A stretch of DNA of 64,000 nt from Streptomyces sp. NBC_01478 (GTDB lineage: Bacteria; Actinomycetota; Actinomycetes; Streptomycetales; Streptomycetaceae). A program made the translations under genes and the position numbers. The notes under the pieces were generated by a model that saw nothing but the letters and a program-made list of their open reading frames with translations, searched no databases and was not told the origin of the DNA. The stretch is taken from contig NZ_CP109444.1 in assembly GCF_036227225.1 (NCBI RefSeq), positions 2,957,501 to 3,021,500 on the forward strand, written 5' to 3'. Positions 3,227 to 61,976 of the stretch are shown piece by piece; the first letter of the stretch is position 1; each line of letters begins with the position of its first letter.

Positions 3227-4308
3227 CAGTGGCCGTGCGAGTTCCGGAGGAGCTCTCCGCGCGCGTGCCCGCCGAGCAGCGCGGGCCGGGGCTCGACCGG
3301 GATGCCGTACGACTGCTGGTGTCGCGGGGTACCGAGGTGGCGCATCACGTGTTCGCGGAGTTGCCGCGGCTGCTGCGGGCCGGGGATCTGCTGATCGTGA
3401 ACACGTCGCCGACGCTCGCCGCGGCGGTGGACGGGTGGATCGGGCACGCACGCGTGGTGGTGCATTTCTCCACGCGGGGCGATGACGGGCAGTGGGCGGT
3501 CGAGCTGCGGGAGCCGGACGGGAAGGGCACCACACGCGCGCGTGCGGGCGGCCCGGAGGGGGTGGAGGTGCGGCTGACCGGGGACGCGCGGCTGACCCTG
3601 GAGGAGCCGCTGAGCGGGCGGGGGGAGCGGTTGTGGTGGGCGCGGGTGTCCGGTGCGGGGGTGGCGAAGCTGTTGCGCGAGCACGGGCGGCCCATCCGTT
3701 ACTCCTATACGGAGCGGGATCAGCCCCTCTCCGTCTATCAGACCGTGTTCTCGTTGCCGGCCGAGGACGGGGCCGGCAGTGCGGAGATGCCCAGCGCCGC
3801 GCGGCCCTTCACCGCGCGGCTCGTGGCGGAGCTGGTGAGTCGGGGGGTGCAGTTCGCGCCGATCACCTTGCACACGGGGGTGGCGTCGGCCGAGGTGCAC
3901 GAGCCGCCGTATCCGGAGCGGTTCGCGGTGTCGGAGGTGTCGGCCCGGTTGATCAACGCCGCCCGCGCGGGGGACGGGCGGGTGATCGCGGTGGGGACCA
4001 CTGCCGTGCGGGCGGTGGAGTCCGCCGCCGGGGACGACGGTGTCGTACGCGCGCGTGCCGGGTGGACGGATCTCGTCGTCACGCCGGAGCGGGGGGTGCG
4101 GGTGGTGGACGGGCTGGTGACGGGGCTGCACGAGCCGGAGGCCTCGCATCTGCTGATGCTGGAGGCGGTCGCCGGGCGGGCCGCCGTCGATCGCAGTTAT
4201 GAGGAGGCCTTGCGGGGGCTCTACCTGTGGCACGAGTTCGGGGACGTGCATCTCATCCTCCCGGAGGAGGATCCTCACACGGTGCGTTGCTCCCGCAACT
4301 GCGGGTGA
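3223..4308 (+). CDS. QueA-like S-adenosylmethionine:tRNA ribosyltransferase-isomerase family protein
   Basis: A 361-residue protein with the overall QueA fold signature: LLIVNTSPTLAA near residue 62, YQTVFSLP near 172, ITLHTGVAS near 216, AVGTTAVRAVES near 262 and a closing LLMLEAVAG. QueA transfers and isomerises the ribosyl group of SAM onto preQ1-modified tRNA in queuosine synthesis. Core blocks are diverged here: the canonical segment GSVAAPTAGLHFT reads GSAEMPSAARPFT, and the THAxxH-type region after TLH is replaced. No tgt or preQ1 gene is nearby; the partner is an SDR overlapping by four bases. Family membership is clear, but activity as a true QueA is uncertain. Confidence 0.8.
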   Translation: MTVAVRVPEELSARVPAEQRGPGLDRDAVRLLVSRGTEVAHHVFAELPRLLRAGDLLIVNTSPTLAAAVDGWIGHARVVVHFSTRGDDGQWAVELREPDGKGTTRARAGGPEGVEVRLTGDARLTLEEPLSGRGERLWWARVSGAGVAKLLREHGRPIRYSYTERDQPLSVYQTVFSLPAEDGAGSAEMPSAARPFTARLVAELVSRGVQFAPITLHTGVASAEVHEPPYPERFAVSEVSARLINAARAGDGRVIAVGTTAVRAVESAAGDDGVVRARAGWTDLVVTPERGVRVVDGLVTGLHEPEASHLLMLEAVAGRAAVDRSYEEALRGLYLWHEFGDVHLILPEEDPHTVRCSRNCG

Positions 4309-4393
4309 GGTCAGGGCGCGCTCGGTGTGAGCCCGCGCATAGGGCACAGATCACGTACTAGCGGACATAGGAGATATGGGCGCCCCGCCTGAG

Positions 4394-4419
4394 CGGGACA
4401 GACGGCCCTGTCTGTCCCG
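4394..4419 (+). terminator. Intrinsic terminator after the QueA-like gene
   Basis: A perfect 10-bp stem (4394-4403 with 4410-4419) with a GGCCCT loop is followed directly by TTTTG. It lies about 85 bases after the QueA-like stop and ahead of the transglycosylase promoter. This is one of the few hairpins in the window with a real T tract. Confidence 0.75.
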
Positions 4420-4464
4420 TTTTGCCCTTCCCTGCTCCACTACCCGGGATCGTACGTCACACCT

Positions 4465-4494
4465 TTGCCAGGGGTTTTTGCGGCCGCTAAGAAT
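4465..4494 (+). promoter_or_regulatory. Predicted vegetative-type promoter of the transglycosylase gene
   Basis: TTGCCA (4465-4470) and TAAGAA/T (4488-4494) are separated by 17 bases, close to the HrdB-type consensus. The predicted transcription start near 4500 coincides with the first base of the closing helix of the structured leader, which supports the call. No experimental evidence is available here. Confidence 0.5.
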
Positions 4495-4499
4495 TGCAG

Positions 4500-4606
4500 C
4501 CGTCGCTCAGCGCCGCGGATCCCGTCCGCGGCGTTTGTGCCGGAAGCACCCGCGTCCCCGCCGGACGGTGAGCGACCTCCGCGCCATTCGAAGAGGTCCA
4601 CCCGCC
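4500..4606 (+). ncRNA. Structured 5' leader with a ribosome-site-occluding hairpin (candidate cis-regulatory RNA)
   Basis: Helix A (4502-4509 with 4569-4576, GTCGCTCA/TGAGCGAC) encloses three perfect hairpins: 4511-4519/4525-4533 (9 bp), 4537-4540/4546-4549 (4 bp) and 4553-4557/4563-4567 (5 bp). A second helix B (GACCTC 4574-4579 with GAGGTC 4593-4598) buries the AGAGG ribosome site ten bases before the ATG at 4607. Helices A and B share bases 4574-4576, so full formation of both is exclusive. This looks like a riboswitch or thermosensor-type switch. It lacks the sequence blocks I know for the ydaO c-di-AMP riboswitch found at other Streptomyces hydrolase genes. The ligand is unknown. Confidence 0.5.
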
Positions 4607-5371
4607 ATGCCCAAGAACATGAACACTCCTGGTCATAGTCGTCTGACCAAGCTGAACAAGCTGACGAAGCAGCACAAGATCGCGCTCGCCGGTGTCGCCA
4701 CGCTCGGCGCCGCCGCCCTCGCCTTCTCCGCGGTGCCCGGCGACGCGGGGACGACCACCAACGACGCCGCGTCCACGGCGAAGGTGGCCTACAGCACGGA
4801 GCCCATCAAGGGCGTCAAGGCCAGCGTCACCGACCAGCTCGCCGGTGCCAGCGTGAAGACCGAGGCGATCCAGGCGAAGGCCGACGCGAAGGCGAAGGCG
4901 GCGAAGGCCAAGGCGGACGCCGCCGCGAAGAAGAAGGCCGCCGCCGAAGCCGCCGCCAAGAAGAAGGCGGAGGCCGCGCGCAAGGCCAAGAAGGCCGCGA
5001 GCCGCTCCAGCCAGCGCGTCAAGATCCAGCCCGTCGCGGCGACGACGTACGCCGACAACCTCAACGGCTGGATCAACCACGCCCTGGCGATCATGAAGCA
5101 GAAGGGCATCCCGGGCTCGTACAACGGCCTGTACAAGAACATCATGCGGGAGTCCTCGGGCAACCCGAGCGCCGTCAACGGCTGGGACGTCAACGCGGTC
5201 AACGGCACCCCGTCGATCGGTCTGCTCCAGGTCATCCAGCCGACGTTCAACGCGTACCACGTCTCCGGTACCTCGACGAGCATCTACGACCCGGTCGCCA
5301 ACATCACCGCCGCGGCGAACTACGCGGCCGACCGCTACGGCTCGATCGACAACGTCAACAGCGCGTACTGA
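4607..5371 (+). CDS. Secreted lytic transglycosylase (SLT domain) with an Ala/Lys-rich linker
   Basis: A 254-residue exported peptidoglycan hydrolase. A basic N-region and hydrophobic stretch (about 25-45, ALAGVATLGAAALAF) form a signal peptide. A highly charged Ala/Lys-rich helix (about 90-132) follows and may thread through or bind the wall. The C-terminal SLT domain (about 145-254) holds the catalytic Glu182 in MRESSGNP, then GLLQVIQPTF and AANYAADRYG. It should cleave MurNAc-GlcNAc bonds during growth or spore germination. The ATG at 4607 is chosen because it follows AGAGG and begins the signal peptide. Expression is probably controlled by the structured leader just upstream. Confidence 0.9.
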   Translation: MPKNMNTPGHSRLTKLNKLTKQHKIALAGVATLGAAALAFSAVPGDAGTTTNDAASTAKVAYSTEPIKGVKASVTDQLAGASVKTEAIQAKADAKAKAAKAKADAAAKKKAAAEAAAKKKAEAARKAKKAASRSSQRVKIQPVAATTYADNLNGWINHALAIMKQKGIPGSYNGLYKNIMRESSGNPSAVNGWDVNAVNGTPSIGLLQVIQPTFNAYHVSGTSTSIYDPVANITAAANYAADRYGSIDNVNSAY

Positions 5372-5414
5372 GACGCGTACCGAGGCCTCCGGCGGACCTC
5401 TGGGTCTCGGTATC

Positions 5415-5462
5415 GACGCCGAAAGGGCGGCACCCGTGTGAGGGGTGCCGCCCTTCGGTGTC
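5415..5462. terminator. Long bidirectional terminator
   Basis: About 20 base pairs (5415-5423 with 5454-5462, and 5425-5435 with 5443-5453) with one bulged A and a seven-base loop. It sits between the convergent ends of the transglycosylase gene and the FHA-ABC gene and should terminate both. It is the strongest hairpin in the first 10 kb. Confidence 0.85.
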
Positions 5463-5474
5463 GTACGGGAACTG

Positions 5475-7985
5475 CTACTTGCGCATGACCTCGGGCTCGT
5501 GGCGGCGCAGGAAGCGGGCCACGAAGAAGCCGCAGATGATGCCGAGGGCGATCAGGGCGGCCATGTCCAGGCCCCAGGCGCCGACGGTGTGCTCCCAGAG
5601 CGGGTCCGTGCTGTCGCCGGGCTTGGGCGGGCTGATCTTGTTGAAGTCGAGCGTGGCGCCCGCGGCGCCGACCGCCCAGCGCGACGGCATCAGGTACGAG
5701 AACTGGTTGACGCCGATCGAGCCGTTCAGGGTGAACAGGCAGCCGGTGAACACGACCTGGATGATCGCGAACATGACCAGCAGCGGCATGGTCTTCTCGG
5801 CCGTCTTCACCAGCGAGGAGATGATCAGGCCGAACATCATCGCGGTGAAGCCGAGACCCATGATCGGGATGCAGAGTTCGAGCATGGTCTGACTGCCGAG
5901 GACCAGGCCCTGCTTGGGGATCTCCCGGCTGGAGAAGCCGATGACGCCGACCATCAGGCCCTGCAGCGCGGTGATCACACCGAGCACGAACACCTTGGAC
6001 ATCAGATACGCGGAACGGGACAGCCCGGTCGCGCGCTCCCGTTCGTAGATGACCCGTTCCTTGATCAGCTCACGGACGGAGTTGGCCGCGCCGGCGAAGC
6101 AGGCGCCGACCGCGAGGATCAGCAGGACCGTGGTGGCCGTGCCGTTCGGGATGACGGTGCCGTTCGCCCTGGGCGGGTTGGGCAGCAGGCTGTTGCCCGA
6201 GTCGATGAGCAGGCTCACCGCGCCCAGGACGCCCGGCAGGATCACCATCAGCGCCAGGAAGCCCTTGTCGGAGGCGATCACCCCGACGTAGCGGCGCACC
6301 AGCGTGACGAACTGCGACATCCAGCCCTGCGGCTTCGGCGGTTTCATGGCCTGCATCGGCGGCATCTGTACGGACTGCGGAGCTATCGCGTCGATGTCCG
6401 CGGCGTACATCTGGTAGTGCTGCGAGCCCTTCCAGCGCCCGGCCCAGTCGTAGTCGCGGTAGTTCTCGAAGGCGGAGAAGACATCGGCCCAGGTGTCGTA
6501 GCCGAAGAAGTTCAGCGCCTCCTCCGGCGGGCCGAAGTAGGCGACCGCGCCGCCCGGCGCCATCACCAACAGCTTGTCGCAGATCGCCAGTTCGGCCACG
6601 GAGTGGGTGACGACGAGGACCGTGCGGCCGTCGTCGGCGAGGCCGCGCAGCAACTGCATGACATCGCGGTCCATGCCCGGGTCGAGGCCCGAGGTGGGCT
6701 CGTCCAGGAAGATCAGCGAGGGCTTGGTGAGGAGTTCCAGCGCGACCGAGACGCGCTTGCGCTGGCCGCCGGAGAGGGAGGTGATCTTCTTCTCTTTGTG
6801 GATGTCGAGCTTCAGCTCGCGCAGCACCTCGTCGATGCGGGCCTCGCGCTCGTCGCCGGTGGTGTCGGCGGGGAAGCGCAGCTTGGCCGCGTACTTGAGC
6901 GCCTTCTTGACGGTCAGTTCCTTGTGCAGGATGTCGTCCTGCGGGACCAGACCGATGCGCTGGCGCAGTTCGGCGAACTGCTTGTAGAGGTTCCGGTTGT
7001 CGTAGAGGACGTCGCCCTGGTTGGCGGGCCGGTAGCCGGTGAGCGCCTTGAGCAGGGTCGACTTGCCGGATCCCGACGGGCCGATGACCGCGATCAGCGA
7101 CTTCTCCGGTACGCCGAAGGAGACGTCCTTGAGGATCTGCTTGCCGCCGTCGACCTCGACGGTCAAGTGCCGTGCGGAGAAGGAGACTTCACCGGTGTCG
7201 ACGAACTCTTCGAGCCGGTCCCCGACCAGCCGGAACGTGGAGTGGCCGACGCCGACGATGTCGTTCGGGCCGAGCAGCGCCGAGCCGCCCTTGGCGATCG
7301 GCTGGCCGTTGACGTACGTGCCGTTGTGCGAGCCGAGGTCACGGATCTCGAAGCGGCCGTCGAGCGTCGCGTGGAACTCGGCGTGGTGGCGCGAGACTTG
7401 GAGGTCGGAGACCACCAACTCGTTCTCCAGCGCACGGCCGATGTGCATCACGCGGTCCAGCGAGAACTGGTGGAACGTGGTCGGGCTGCGGTCGCCGTAG
7501 ACCGGCGGCGCCCCCGCGCCGACGCCGGACCCCTGCTGCGGCGGAATGTTCGCGGCGGCCGGCGGCTGGTAACGCTGCTGCTCGGGCGTCTGCTGCGGGG
7601 CTGCCTGCTGTGCCCAGCCGGGGCCCGCTCCCTGTGCCGCGTACGGCTGTTGCTGCGGCTGCGGAGTGGCGACCGGGGCCGCGGCGCCGGACAGGCTCAG
7701 GCGCGGGCCGTCGGTCGCGTTGCCCAGGTGCACGGACGAGCCGGGGCCGATCTCCATCTGATGGATGCGCTGCCCCTGCACGAACGTGCCGTTGGTGCTG
7801 CCGTGGTCGTCGATGACCCAACTCCGGCCGCCCCAACTGATCGTGGCGTGCCGCCAGGAAACCCTGGCGTCGTCGACCACGATGTCCCCCTGCGGATCAC
7901 GTCCGAGGGTGTAGGGCCTGGACGCGTCGAGCGTCCAGGTCCGTCCATTCAATTCCAGTACGAGTTCCGGCACTCCATGCCCCAC
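5475..7985 (-). CDS. Double-FHA ABC transporter (ATPase plus membrane domain in one chain)
   Basis: An 836-residue half-transporter. Two FHA phosphothreonine-binding domains lie at about 8-98 (GRDPQGD, RVSWRHATI) and 172-256 (IGRALENEL, VSRHHAEF, SHNGTYVNG), joined by a Gln/Pro-rich linker. The ABC domain (about 272-500) has Walker A GPSGSGKST (302-310), signature LSGGQ (404-408) and Walker B LIFLDEP (424-430). An ABC2-type membrane domain with six helices (about 560-830) closes the chain. Order and size resemble mycobacterial Rv1747, which is regulated by Ser/Thr kinases through FHA binding. The substrate is unknown; control by a PknB-type kinase is inference. It is transcribed alone, divergent from the streptophobe gene. 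Confidence 0.92.
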   Translation of the reverse strand: MGHGVPELVLELNGRTWTLDASRPYTLGRDPQGDIVVDDARVSWRHATISWGGRSWVIDDHGSTNGTFVQGQRIHQMEIGPGSSVHLGNATDGPRLSLSGAAAPVATPQPQQQPYAAQGAGPGWAQQAAPQQTPEQQRYQPPAAANIPPQQGSGVGAGAPPVYGDRSPTTFHQFSLDRVMHIGRALENELVVSDLQVSRHHAEFHATLDGRFEIRDLGSHNGTYVNGQPIAKGGSALLGPNDIVGVGHSTFRLVGDRLEEFVDTGEVSFSARHLTVEVDGGKQILKDVSFGVPEKSLIAVIGPSGSGKSTLLKALTGYRPANQGDVLYDNRNLYKQFAELRQRIGLVPQDDILHKELTVKKALKYAAKLRFPADTTGDEREARIDEVLRELKLDIHKEKKITSLSGGQRKRVSVALELLTKPSLIFLDEPTSGLDPGMDRDVMQLLRGLADDGRTVLVVTHSVAELAICDKLLVMAPGGAVAYFGPPEEALNFFGYDTWADVFSAFENYRDYDWAGRWKGSQHYQMYAADIDAIAPQSVQMPPMQAMKPPKPQGWMSQFVTLVRRYVGVIASDKGFLALMVILPGVLGAVSLLIDSGNSLLPNPPRANGTVIPNGTATTVLLILAVGACFAGAANSVRELIKERVIYERERATGLSRSAYLMSKVFVLGVITALQGLMVGVIGFSSREIPKQGLVLGSQTMLELCIPIMGLGFTAMMFGLIISSLVKTAEKTMPLLVMFAIIQVVFTGCLFTLNGSIGVNQFSYLMPSRWAVGAAGATLDFNKISPPKPGDSTDPLWEHTVGAWGLDMAALIALGIICGFFVARFLRRHEPEVMRK

Positions 7986-61484: not shown

Positions 61485-61739
61485 GCAGACCTCCTGGACT
61501 CAAGAGTTGGCGTCCTCGAAGGTGTCCATCGCGCCCGAAAACCGTAGCGTCGCCGATGCCGGCCGCGCAGGTCCCCCCGAAGAATGGGCTTCGAAAGCCG
61601 CTACCACTCGACCTACCGCTCCCTGGATTCTCCTTTCCAGTCTAGAGAGGCCTGATTCGGTCGACCAGAGTCAAACAAGCCCGGCATGTGGGCCTCAGCA
61701 CACTCCTCCGTCCCAGGTCAACAGCAAGTTGACGCCCCT

Positions 61740-61860
61740 TCCAACAGCATGGTGGACTGCCGGAGCCATATACGGCGGCAGGAGAGGAAGCCGGTGCGAA
61801 TCCGGCGCGGTCCCGCCACTGTCACCGGGGTAGGTAGCCCCGGGAGCCAGGAACTCTCAC
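61740..61860 (+). promoter_or_regulatory. Cobalamin (B12) riboswitch upstream of cobD
   Basis: The B12 box GCCACTG is at 61815-61821, preceded by GGAAGCCGGTGCGAATCCGGC (61787-61805 region) and followed by the CGGGGTAGGTAGCCCCGGG paired region and GCCAGGAACTC. These are core features of the adenosylcobalamin aptamer. Binding should reduce cobD-cobQ expression when cobalamin is plentiful. The ends are approximate. Confidence 0.93.
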
Positions 61861-61976
61861 CGCCGGTCTCGTCGAACCAGGGCGTGGACACCCTGAGTGA
61901 GGACATATCGCCATGCTCGGCTGCCGTTCGAGGTCCCGTACCAGCGCAGTGCCCGACCCAGCGATCGGCTGAGCCG

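Follow-up and report, generated by a model that had tools for sequence, protein, structure and literature searches.

The SLT transglycosylase gene in the window (the whole 64,000-nucleotide stretch of Streptomyces DNA that was analysed) is preceded by a leader RNA of an unlisted family. This conclusion is well supported: no Rfam family matches the leader, its helices P1 and P2 covary, and a covariance model finds matches beyond its training set. An unlisted structured leader class is what the original prediction had proposed; its interpretation as a whole is partly supported. As to function, the reading that we put first, tentatively and with doubt slightly outweighing belief, is that of a cis-acting RNA family of Streptomycetaceae SLT genes in which the closing helix, P1, serves chiefly to shield the 5' end of the transcript and to insulate the start site. 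The position of the element relative to the promoter, its conservation, its covariation and its linkage to SLT genes are observed; the transcription start is predicted, and a stability effect and insulation are what we infer.

Promoter, predicted transcript and fold

The gene (4607..5371, + strand, ATG at 4607) encodes a 254-amino acid protein with an SLT transglycosylase domain (PF01464, E 1e-10), probably secreted, judging by its N-terminus. Its neighbours are a QueA-like gene (PF02547) upstream and a convergent FHA/ABC-2 transporter gene. A strong hairpin, CGGGACAGAC..GTCTGTCCCG, followed by TTTT, lies 3' of the QueA-like gene at ~4393-4424 and probably is that gene's terminator, although it was not among the sites called by the scan. 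At 4338-4372, CATAGGGCACAGATCACGTACTAGCGGACATAGG resembles ATAGGGCGCAGGTCACATACTAAGCCGCTTAGTG, found 5' of an SLT gene in a different genus (L255, with a similar sequence at L257), and might be a common SLT-gene operator. Elsewhere in the window (61736-61878, strand +) there is a cobalamin riboswitch of 48.7 bits.

The promoter occupies a conserved block (CGTACGTCACACC, 4452..4494, + strand) that is marked out by promoter scanning and by pattern conservation. The predicted pair, a -35 element TTGCCA (4465-4470) and, after 17 nt, a -10 element TAAGAA (4488-4493, or TAAGAAT to 4494), can be read directly from the sequence; a scan of 4200-5500 finds the same site, as TTGCCA-N18-AAGAAT at 9/12, and it is the only promoter-like site in that interval (0.1 expected). 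With at most one mismatch the promoter pattern TTTTGCNNNCGCTAASAATKGC is present in 317 of 392 Streptomyces genomes, and at two mismatches in 44 of the 150 genomes of a family-wide draw that includes Streptomyces; in that draw the reversed control pattern, at two mismatches, matched three genomes, and four pattern matches were later dropped as unrelated. The window's own genome holds a single copy of a near-identical pattern, and the upstream half, TCGTACGTCACACCTTTGCCA, is unique in it. Among 192 upstream regions, 181 have TTGCC and 179 have CGTACGTCAC (at most two mismatches). The CGTACGTCACACCTTTGCC block, which is window 4452-4470, was found at none of 24 loci of SLT homologues in two other genera when up to five mismatches were allowed. 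The accessible part of the MtrA paper (PMC13189361), consulted with a regulator in mind, gave no sequence that could be matched.

In S. lividans the spacing from the -10 element to the start is 4-9 nt, with a mean of 6.3, according to the accessible text of PMC8079986. Applied here, this rule predicts a transcription start at 4500..4501 (+ strand; about 4498-4504 permitted); the window leader is ~105 nt long. The 5' G of P1 sits 7-8 nt past the last T of the -10 element in 189 of 191 leaders, and P1 should therefore begin at about nucleotide +2 or +3, within a few nucleotides of the 5' end as reckoned from the predicted start.

The leader (4496-4612) folds better than dinucleotide shuffles of itself (z -2.6; 3/200 as good). 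A scan found no terminator-like site or attenuator in it, and a role of that kind was dropped. The helices lie where they had been predicted, on the + strand. P1 joins GTCGCTCA (4502..4509) to TGAGCGAC (4569..4576) by eight Watson-Crick pairs and, when P1 is forced, three hairpins form inside it: P2 at 4510..4534 (4510-4520/4524-4534, with a G-U pair at either end); GTGC-CGGAA-GCAC, the P3 of the window subgroup defined below, at 4537..4549 (4537-4540/4546-4549; 1.28 bits per column in the subgroup); and P4, CGTCC-ccgcc-GGACG, at 4553..4567 (4553-4557/4563-4567), a stretch that is variable in relatives (columns 66-90 of the subgroup alignment, 0.81 bits).

With the 5' end set at 4496, 4498 or 4500 the predicted optimum lacks P1, whose pair probabilities do not exceed 0.06; it is thus from comparison, not from folding energies, that P1 draws its support. 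Setting the 5' end at 4502 brings its inner pairs to probabilities of 0.49-0.75. Folding energy taken by itself yields a mean best-pair probability for P1 of 0.55 within the subgroup and 0.39 outside it. A different 5' pairing, preferred by the energy model for the window, was rejected: all six of its pairs are kept in only 41 of 103 subgroup sequences, with no covariation excess.

Comparative evidence for the closing helix

Leaders were taken from orthologues (80 of 84 loci retained), from the window's genome and from further genomes, those from the 392-genome Streptomyces search coming from part of the genomes, among the matches listed. Of the 212 extracted, 192 are distinct and counts refer to these; some genomes are of the same strain. 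The set excludes L114-L117 (promoter-pattern matches at two mismatches that were judged not to be SLT leaders) and, for want of a recognised ribosome site or because a contig end cuts them, L075, L080, L200, L201, L218, L225, L235 and L237. (L200, L201 and L225 are additional copies of SLT leaders, located at contig ends in two genomes, and may be repeats that broke the assembly.) The window subgroup, 105 distinct leaders, was delimited by the presence of GTCGCTC in the 5' strand; the invariance of P1 within it is accordingly in part a matter of selection. Its alignment holds 103 sequences (L004 and L100 omitted). The wide alignment holds 44 of 50 diverse leaders (L261, L119, L120, L121, L125 and L226 omitted), paralogues with another promoter included. 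Both were built without structure, and the columns tested were picked after inspecting them. The protein tree covers 111 of the 192 leaders, the loci containing the whole gene.

In 191 of 192 leaders the first bases can be paired, as a helix, with a segment that precedes the ribosome site. This is a best fit for which three core pairs suffice; its register is probably wrong in some leaders with a partner far from the ribosome site, and the fitted P1 has four base pairs or fewer in 27 of the 191. The search being so permissive, each leader's own strands were compared with swapped ones: for 53 distinct types the best-helix score is 957 with own strands and 839 +/- 21 with swapped (maximum 913 in 2000 swaps), own strands beating the swapped mean in 38 types only. 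The strands are GTCGCTC/GAGCGAC in the window subgroup and elsewhere GTCC/GGAC, AGTCGC/GCGACT, CGTCGC/GCGACG, CCGTCGC/GCGACGG, GTCGCA/TGCGGC, GTCGCAG/CTGCGAC or GAGCCGCAG/CTGCGGCTC.

In the 44 diverse leaders P1 and P2 together show 54 double-change cells against 24.7 +/- 3.7 in shuffled alignments and a covariation score of 0.230 against 0.117 (neither reached in 500 shuffles, and every slide at or below 0.067), and 87.0% of their cells are paired against 78.6%, which no shuffle reaches. The remaining two of the five measures do not exceed the shuffled values: double-change pairs (7 against 5.8; 78/500 reach) and pair types (15 against 13.9; 182/500). Within the subgroup (103 sequences) P1 hardly varies, and the nine double-change cells (1.9 in shuffles; 0/500) are all in P2; the score is 0.064 against 0.051, with one slide (+2) reaching 0.056. 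On the protein tree P1 has 11 pair-keeping double changes over six positions (4, 1, 2, 1, 2 and 1 at positions -1, 0, 1, 3, 5 and 6). Changes that break or restore pairs are commoner at the outer positions -1, 5 and 6 (24, 20 and 20); positions 1-3 are blind to breaks, since the register was chosen to pair there. Independent compensatory events in P1 are thus real but few.

These changes bear on a reading in which the conserved block is promoter or operator DNA only and the RNA fold incidental. The promoter half is indeed very conserved and single-copy in the window's genome, but compensation between separated strands, and the retention of P1 and P2 by paralogues with a different promoter, leave this already disfavoured reading with little probability.

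What is constant in these leaders is chiefly the placing of P1. Its partner strand lies 13-18 nt 5' of AGAGG in 166 of 191 leaders, and the span that it encloses runs, in the fit, from 3 to 78 nt. A scan finds a hairpin of at least 5 bp after P1 in 103 of the 105 subgroup leaders and in 38 of 86 others, leaving 48 of those 86 with none of that length. Four leaders of 55-59 nt (L085, L056, L060 and L089) consist, by eye, of a P1 hairpin and the ribosome site. Across the wide set, stems carry 1.47 bits and the interior 0.75 bits, and the invariant columns fall in stems, ribosome site and start codon. A third stem is visible by eye in several groups; the consensus fold has P1 and part of P2. Within the subgroup J2/3 (1.49 bits) and the linker before AGAGG (1.62 bits) are also conserved. 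J2/3 is conserved there only, one paralogue group having similar loops by eye.

Protection of the 5' end together with a defined approach to the ribosome site fits best because the stem is near the 5' end, its place is constant while its content changes, and a single gene family is concerned. P1 would be the core of the element, its 5' strand starting around predicted nucleotide two or three, its 3' strand usually ending at the distance from the ribosome site just given, with a variable set of hairpins, sometimes none, between them. Most likely it pairs off the 5' terminus and hinders 5'-end-dependent decay, by an RppH-like pyrophosphohydrolase, RNase J and RNase E, and it would hold the bases immediately 5' of the ribosome site in a set structure; in the window subgroup initiation may be lowered by an additional local helix. 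Secondary structure at the 5' end stabilises mRNA in E. coli, and the Bacillus RppH requires at least two unpaired 5' nucleotides, as stated in the accessible portion of PMC3997798; S. coelicolor possesses RNase J, with a preference for 5'-monophosphate, by the corresponding portion of PMC10126417.

The same stems, or the linker before the ribosome site, might instead serve a regulatory protein or a small RNA as binding site. P1 does keep particular pairs (C, G and C of the 5' strand and C and G of the 3' strand are the invariant columns of P1 in the wide alignment), and the linker is conserved in the subgroup, but in the wider set its conservation falls to 0.63 bits over 5 counted columns, and we regard such a site as doubtful.

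The ribosome site and a possible switch

The ribosome-binding site AGAGGTC (4592..4598, + strand) has 1.90 bits in the subgroup alignment. As predicted, GACCTC (4574..4579, + strand) can form six pairs with GAGGTC (4593-4598), covering AGAGG (4592-4596), and all six are intact in 91 of 103 subgroup sequences. The original prediction saw in this helix and P1, which share 4574-4576, the two competing states of a translational riboswitch. The shared bases are there; the competition is not borne out. With the 5' end at 4500 and the 3' end at 4606, full P1 gives -47.3 kcal/mol and the inner five pairs of P1 combined with the full ribosome-site helix -48.2 kcal/mol; with the same 5' end an alternative that has the ribosome-site helix and lacks P1 gives -49.5 kcal/mol, and the differences among the three folds are small. 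Three common bases do not make the helices exclusive, because a shortened P1 together with the ribosome-site helix is energetically equal to full P1.

The covariation that had been expected in orthologues, present for P1 (counted with P2), is lacking for the ribosome-site helix: in the 103 subgroup sequences no pair has a double change and no measure is above shuffles, and its score of 0.057 is exceeded by one slide (+1, 0.074). Openness of the site was taken as the mean unpaired probability of AGAGG and compared with 12 shuffles of each upstream sequence. It is 0.25 against 0.34 in the window subgroup, with 89 of 105 leaders below the shuffle mean, and 0.33 against 0.33 in the other 87, 46 of them below. 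Closure of the ribosome site, if selected at all, is therefore a trait of the subgroup, and in view of the null covariation and the lack of closure outside the subgroup the anti-ribosome-site helix was rejected as a family-wide feature. Two mutually exclusive structures, each with evolutionary support, as a translational riboswitch would have, are thus not found here, the ribosome-site helix being without covariation and able to coexist with P1.

To a translational switch as originally proposed, where a ligand or protein would act by stabilising the P1/P2/P3 junction or by making the ribosome site accessible, we give a real but minor share of probability. It would account for the P1, P2 and, often, by eye, third stem that the window gene has in common with SLT paralogues, also in other genera, for the largely intact GACCTC/GAGGTC pairing and slightly more closed ribosome site of the subgroup, and for the linkage to a single gene family. 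It is at odds with the results just given for the ribosome-site helix, with the four leaders in which the interior is almost gone and P1 is retained, with invariant columns confined to stems, ribosome site and start codon, and with a consensus fold that has no third stem. In the subgroup J2/3 and the linker are more conserved than a plain stabiliser would require; since this counts against such a stabiliser, a responsive switch stays the main rival. More speculatively, and in our estimate rather unlikely, the leader may be an orphan class of riboswitch or protein-responsive RNA confined to SLT transglycosylases, whose P1-closed junction would read a wall-derived or stress signal and which some lineages would have reduced to a bare P1.

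Known RNA families, distribution and parallels

At the window leader a search of Rfam 15 with E up to 5 returns nothing but MIR7510, whose two matches score 18.9 and 16.2 bits where the cut-off is 93, and in 20 diverse loci (E up to 0.5) no match falls on any leader. On these covariance-model searches ydaO and all other Rfam families were rejected. That ydaO is absent had been predicted and is upheld: RF00379 has no match at the leader with E up to 5, though in other parts of the same genome it scores above cut-off at seven sites. A diverged ydaO (c-di-AMP) riboswitch, for which one could cite its place ahead of Streptomyces wall-hydrolase genes (accessible text of PMC8079986) and directly before the second SLT gene of the window's genome (L082:1969-2156, strand -), is on this evidence most improbable.

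Seventeen loci lack the window promoter or have a diverged one. Six have ydaO, seven have a CCGCAG/CTGCGG leader, full or shortened, behind a different promoter, and four have another, longer leader. (A third SLT paralogue group, L062, L063, L069 and L074, combines a longer leader with a CGTCAC..TTGC promoter; by eye, there may be a 5' stem of GTCGT/ACGAC type.) The CCGCAG form or a remnant of it occurs in three loci of another genus, L254, L256 and L261; among the SLT homologues of two other genera that lack the CGTACGTCACACCTTTGCC block, L254 and L256 carry the CCGCAG/CTGCGG leader and others are almost leaderless.

The covariance model, built from the 44 diverse leaders, has one strong site in the window's genome (5.6e-17; next best 0.10). 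In a family draw it matches 23 of 61 genomes and 10 of 17 genera (21 and 8 minus two presumed chance matches), and in an order draw of mostly Streptomyces 76 of 99 genomes; it misses some genomes that bear the promoter, e.g., G056 with its GTCC-type leader. Among the best 38 model loci, 35 have an SLT gene downstream (33 by C-terminal motif, 2 by Pfam); of the remaining three, one runs into a contig end and the other two are weak and lack an SLT gene. Several of the 38 were in the training set; second copies in other genera (for example L282, L284, L297 and L302) were not. Weak matches in the window's genome (E 0.10, 0.18 and 0.66) and at L294 and L295 (E 0.001 and 0.003) have no SLT motif nearby and are taken as chance. 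Outside the family there are four weak-to-moderate matches (G525, G526, G537 and G538), the best at 1.8e-6.

None of the literature titles listed concerns the leader of this SLT gene; because the search did not extend to supplementary files or to most subscription papers, this speaks only weakly for its absence from print. In the accessible text of PMC11109978, in which S. avermitilis is examined, a transglycosylase is mentioned for a yjbJ motif. The c-di-AMP switch of Streptomyces wall hydrolases is known; here sister SLT genes have a different conserved leader, in the same genome as an SLT paralogue that bears ydaO. The leader provides an RNA element with which the restraint of wall-cutting enzymes can be put to the test, and the natural series of full junction, single hairpin and bare stem allows the stem to be separated from the interior.

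Stabilising stem-loops at the 5' terminus are known from E. coli ompA and papA and from B. subtilis aprE. Like them, the SLT leader has a stem at or near the transcript start (here a predicted start); unlike them, its stem shows covariation at the scale of a bacterial family and goes with a single gene family, and stabilisation would be a role assigned by analogy. The dauA and asfR motifs of Streptomyces, as described in the accessible text of PMC11109978, are likewise three-stem junctions 5' of genes, and dauA takes in the ribosome site; they belong to other genes, the comparison with the SLT leader being by description, not alignment. With ydaO/yuaA (RF00379) the leader shares its setting, the 5' leader of wall-hydrolase genes in Streptomyces (again by the accessible text of PMC8079986) and, within this genome, of one SLT paralogue; it differs in that the ydaO model fails on it, in its length of ~105 nt and in having its closing stem at the predicted 5' end.
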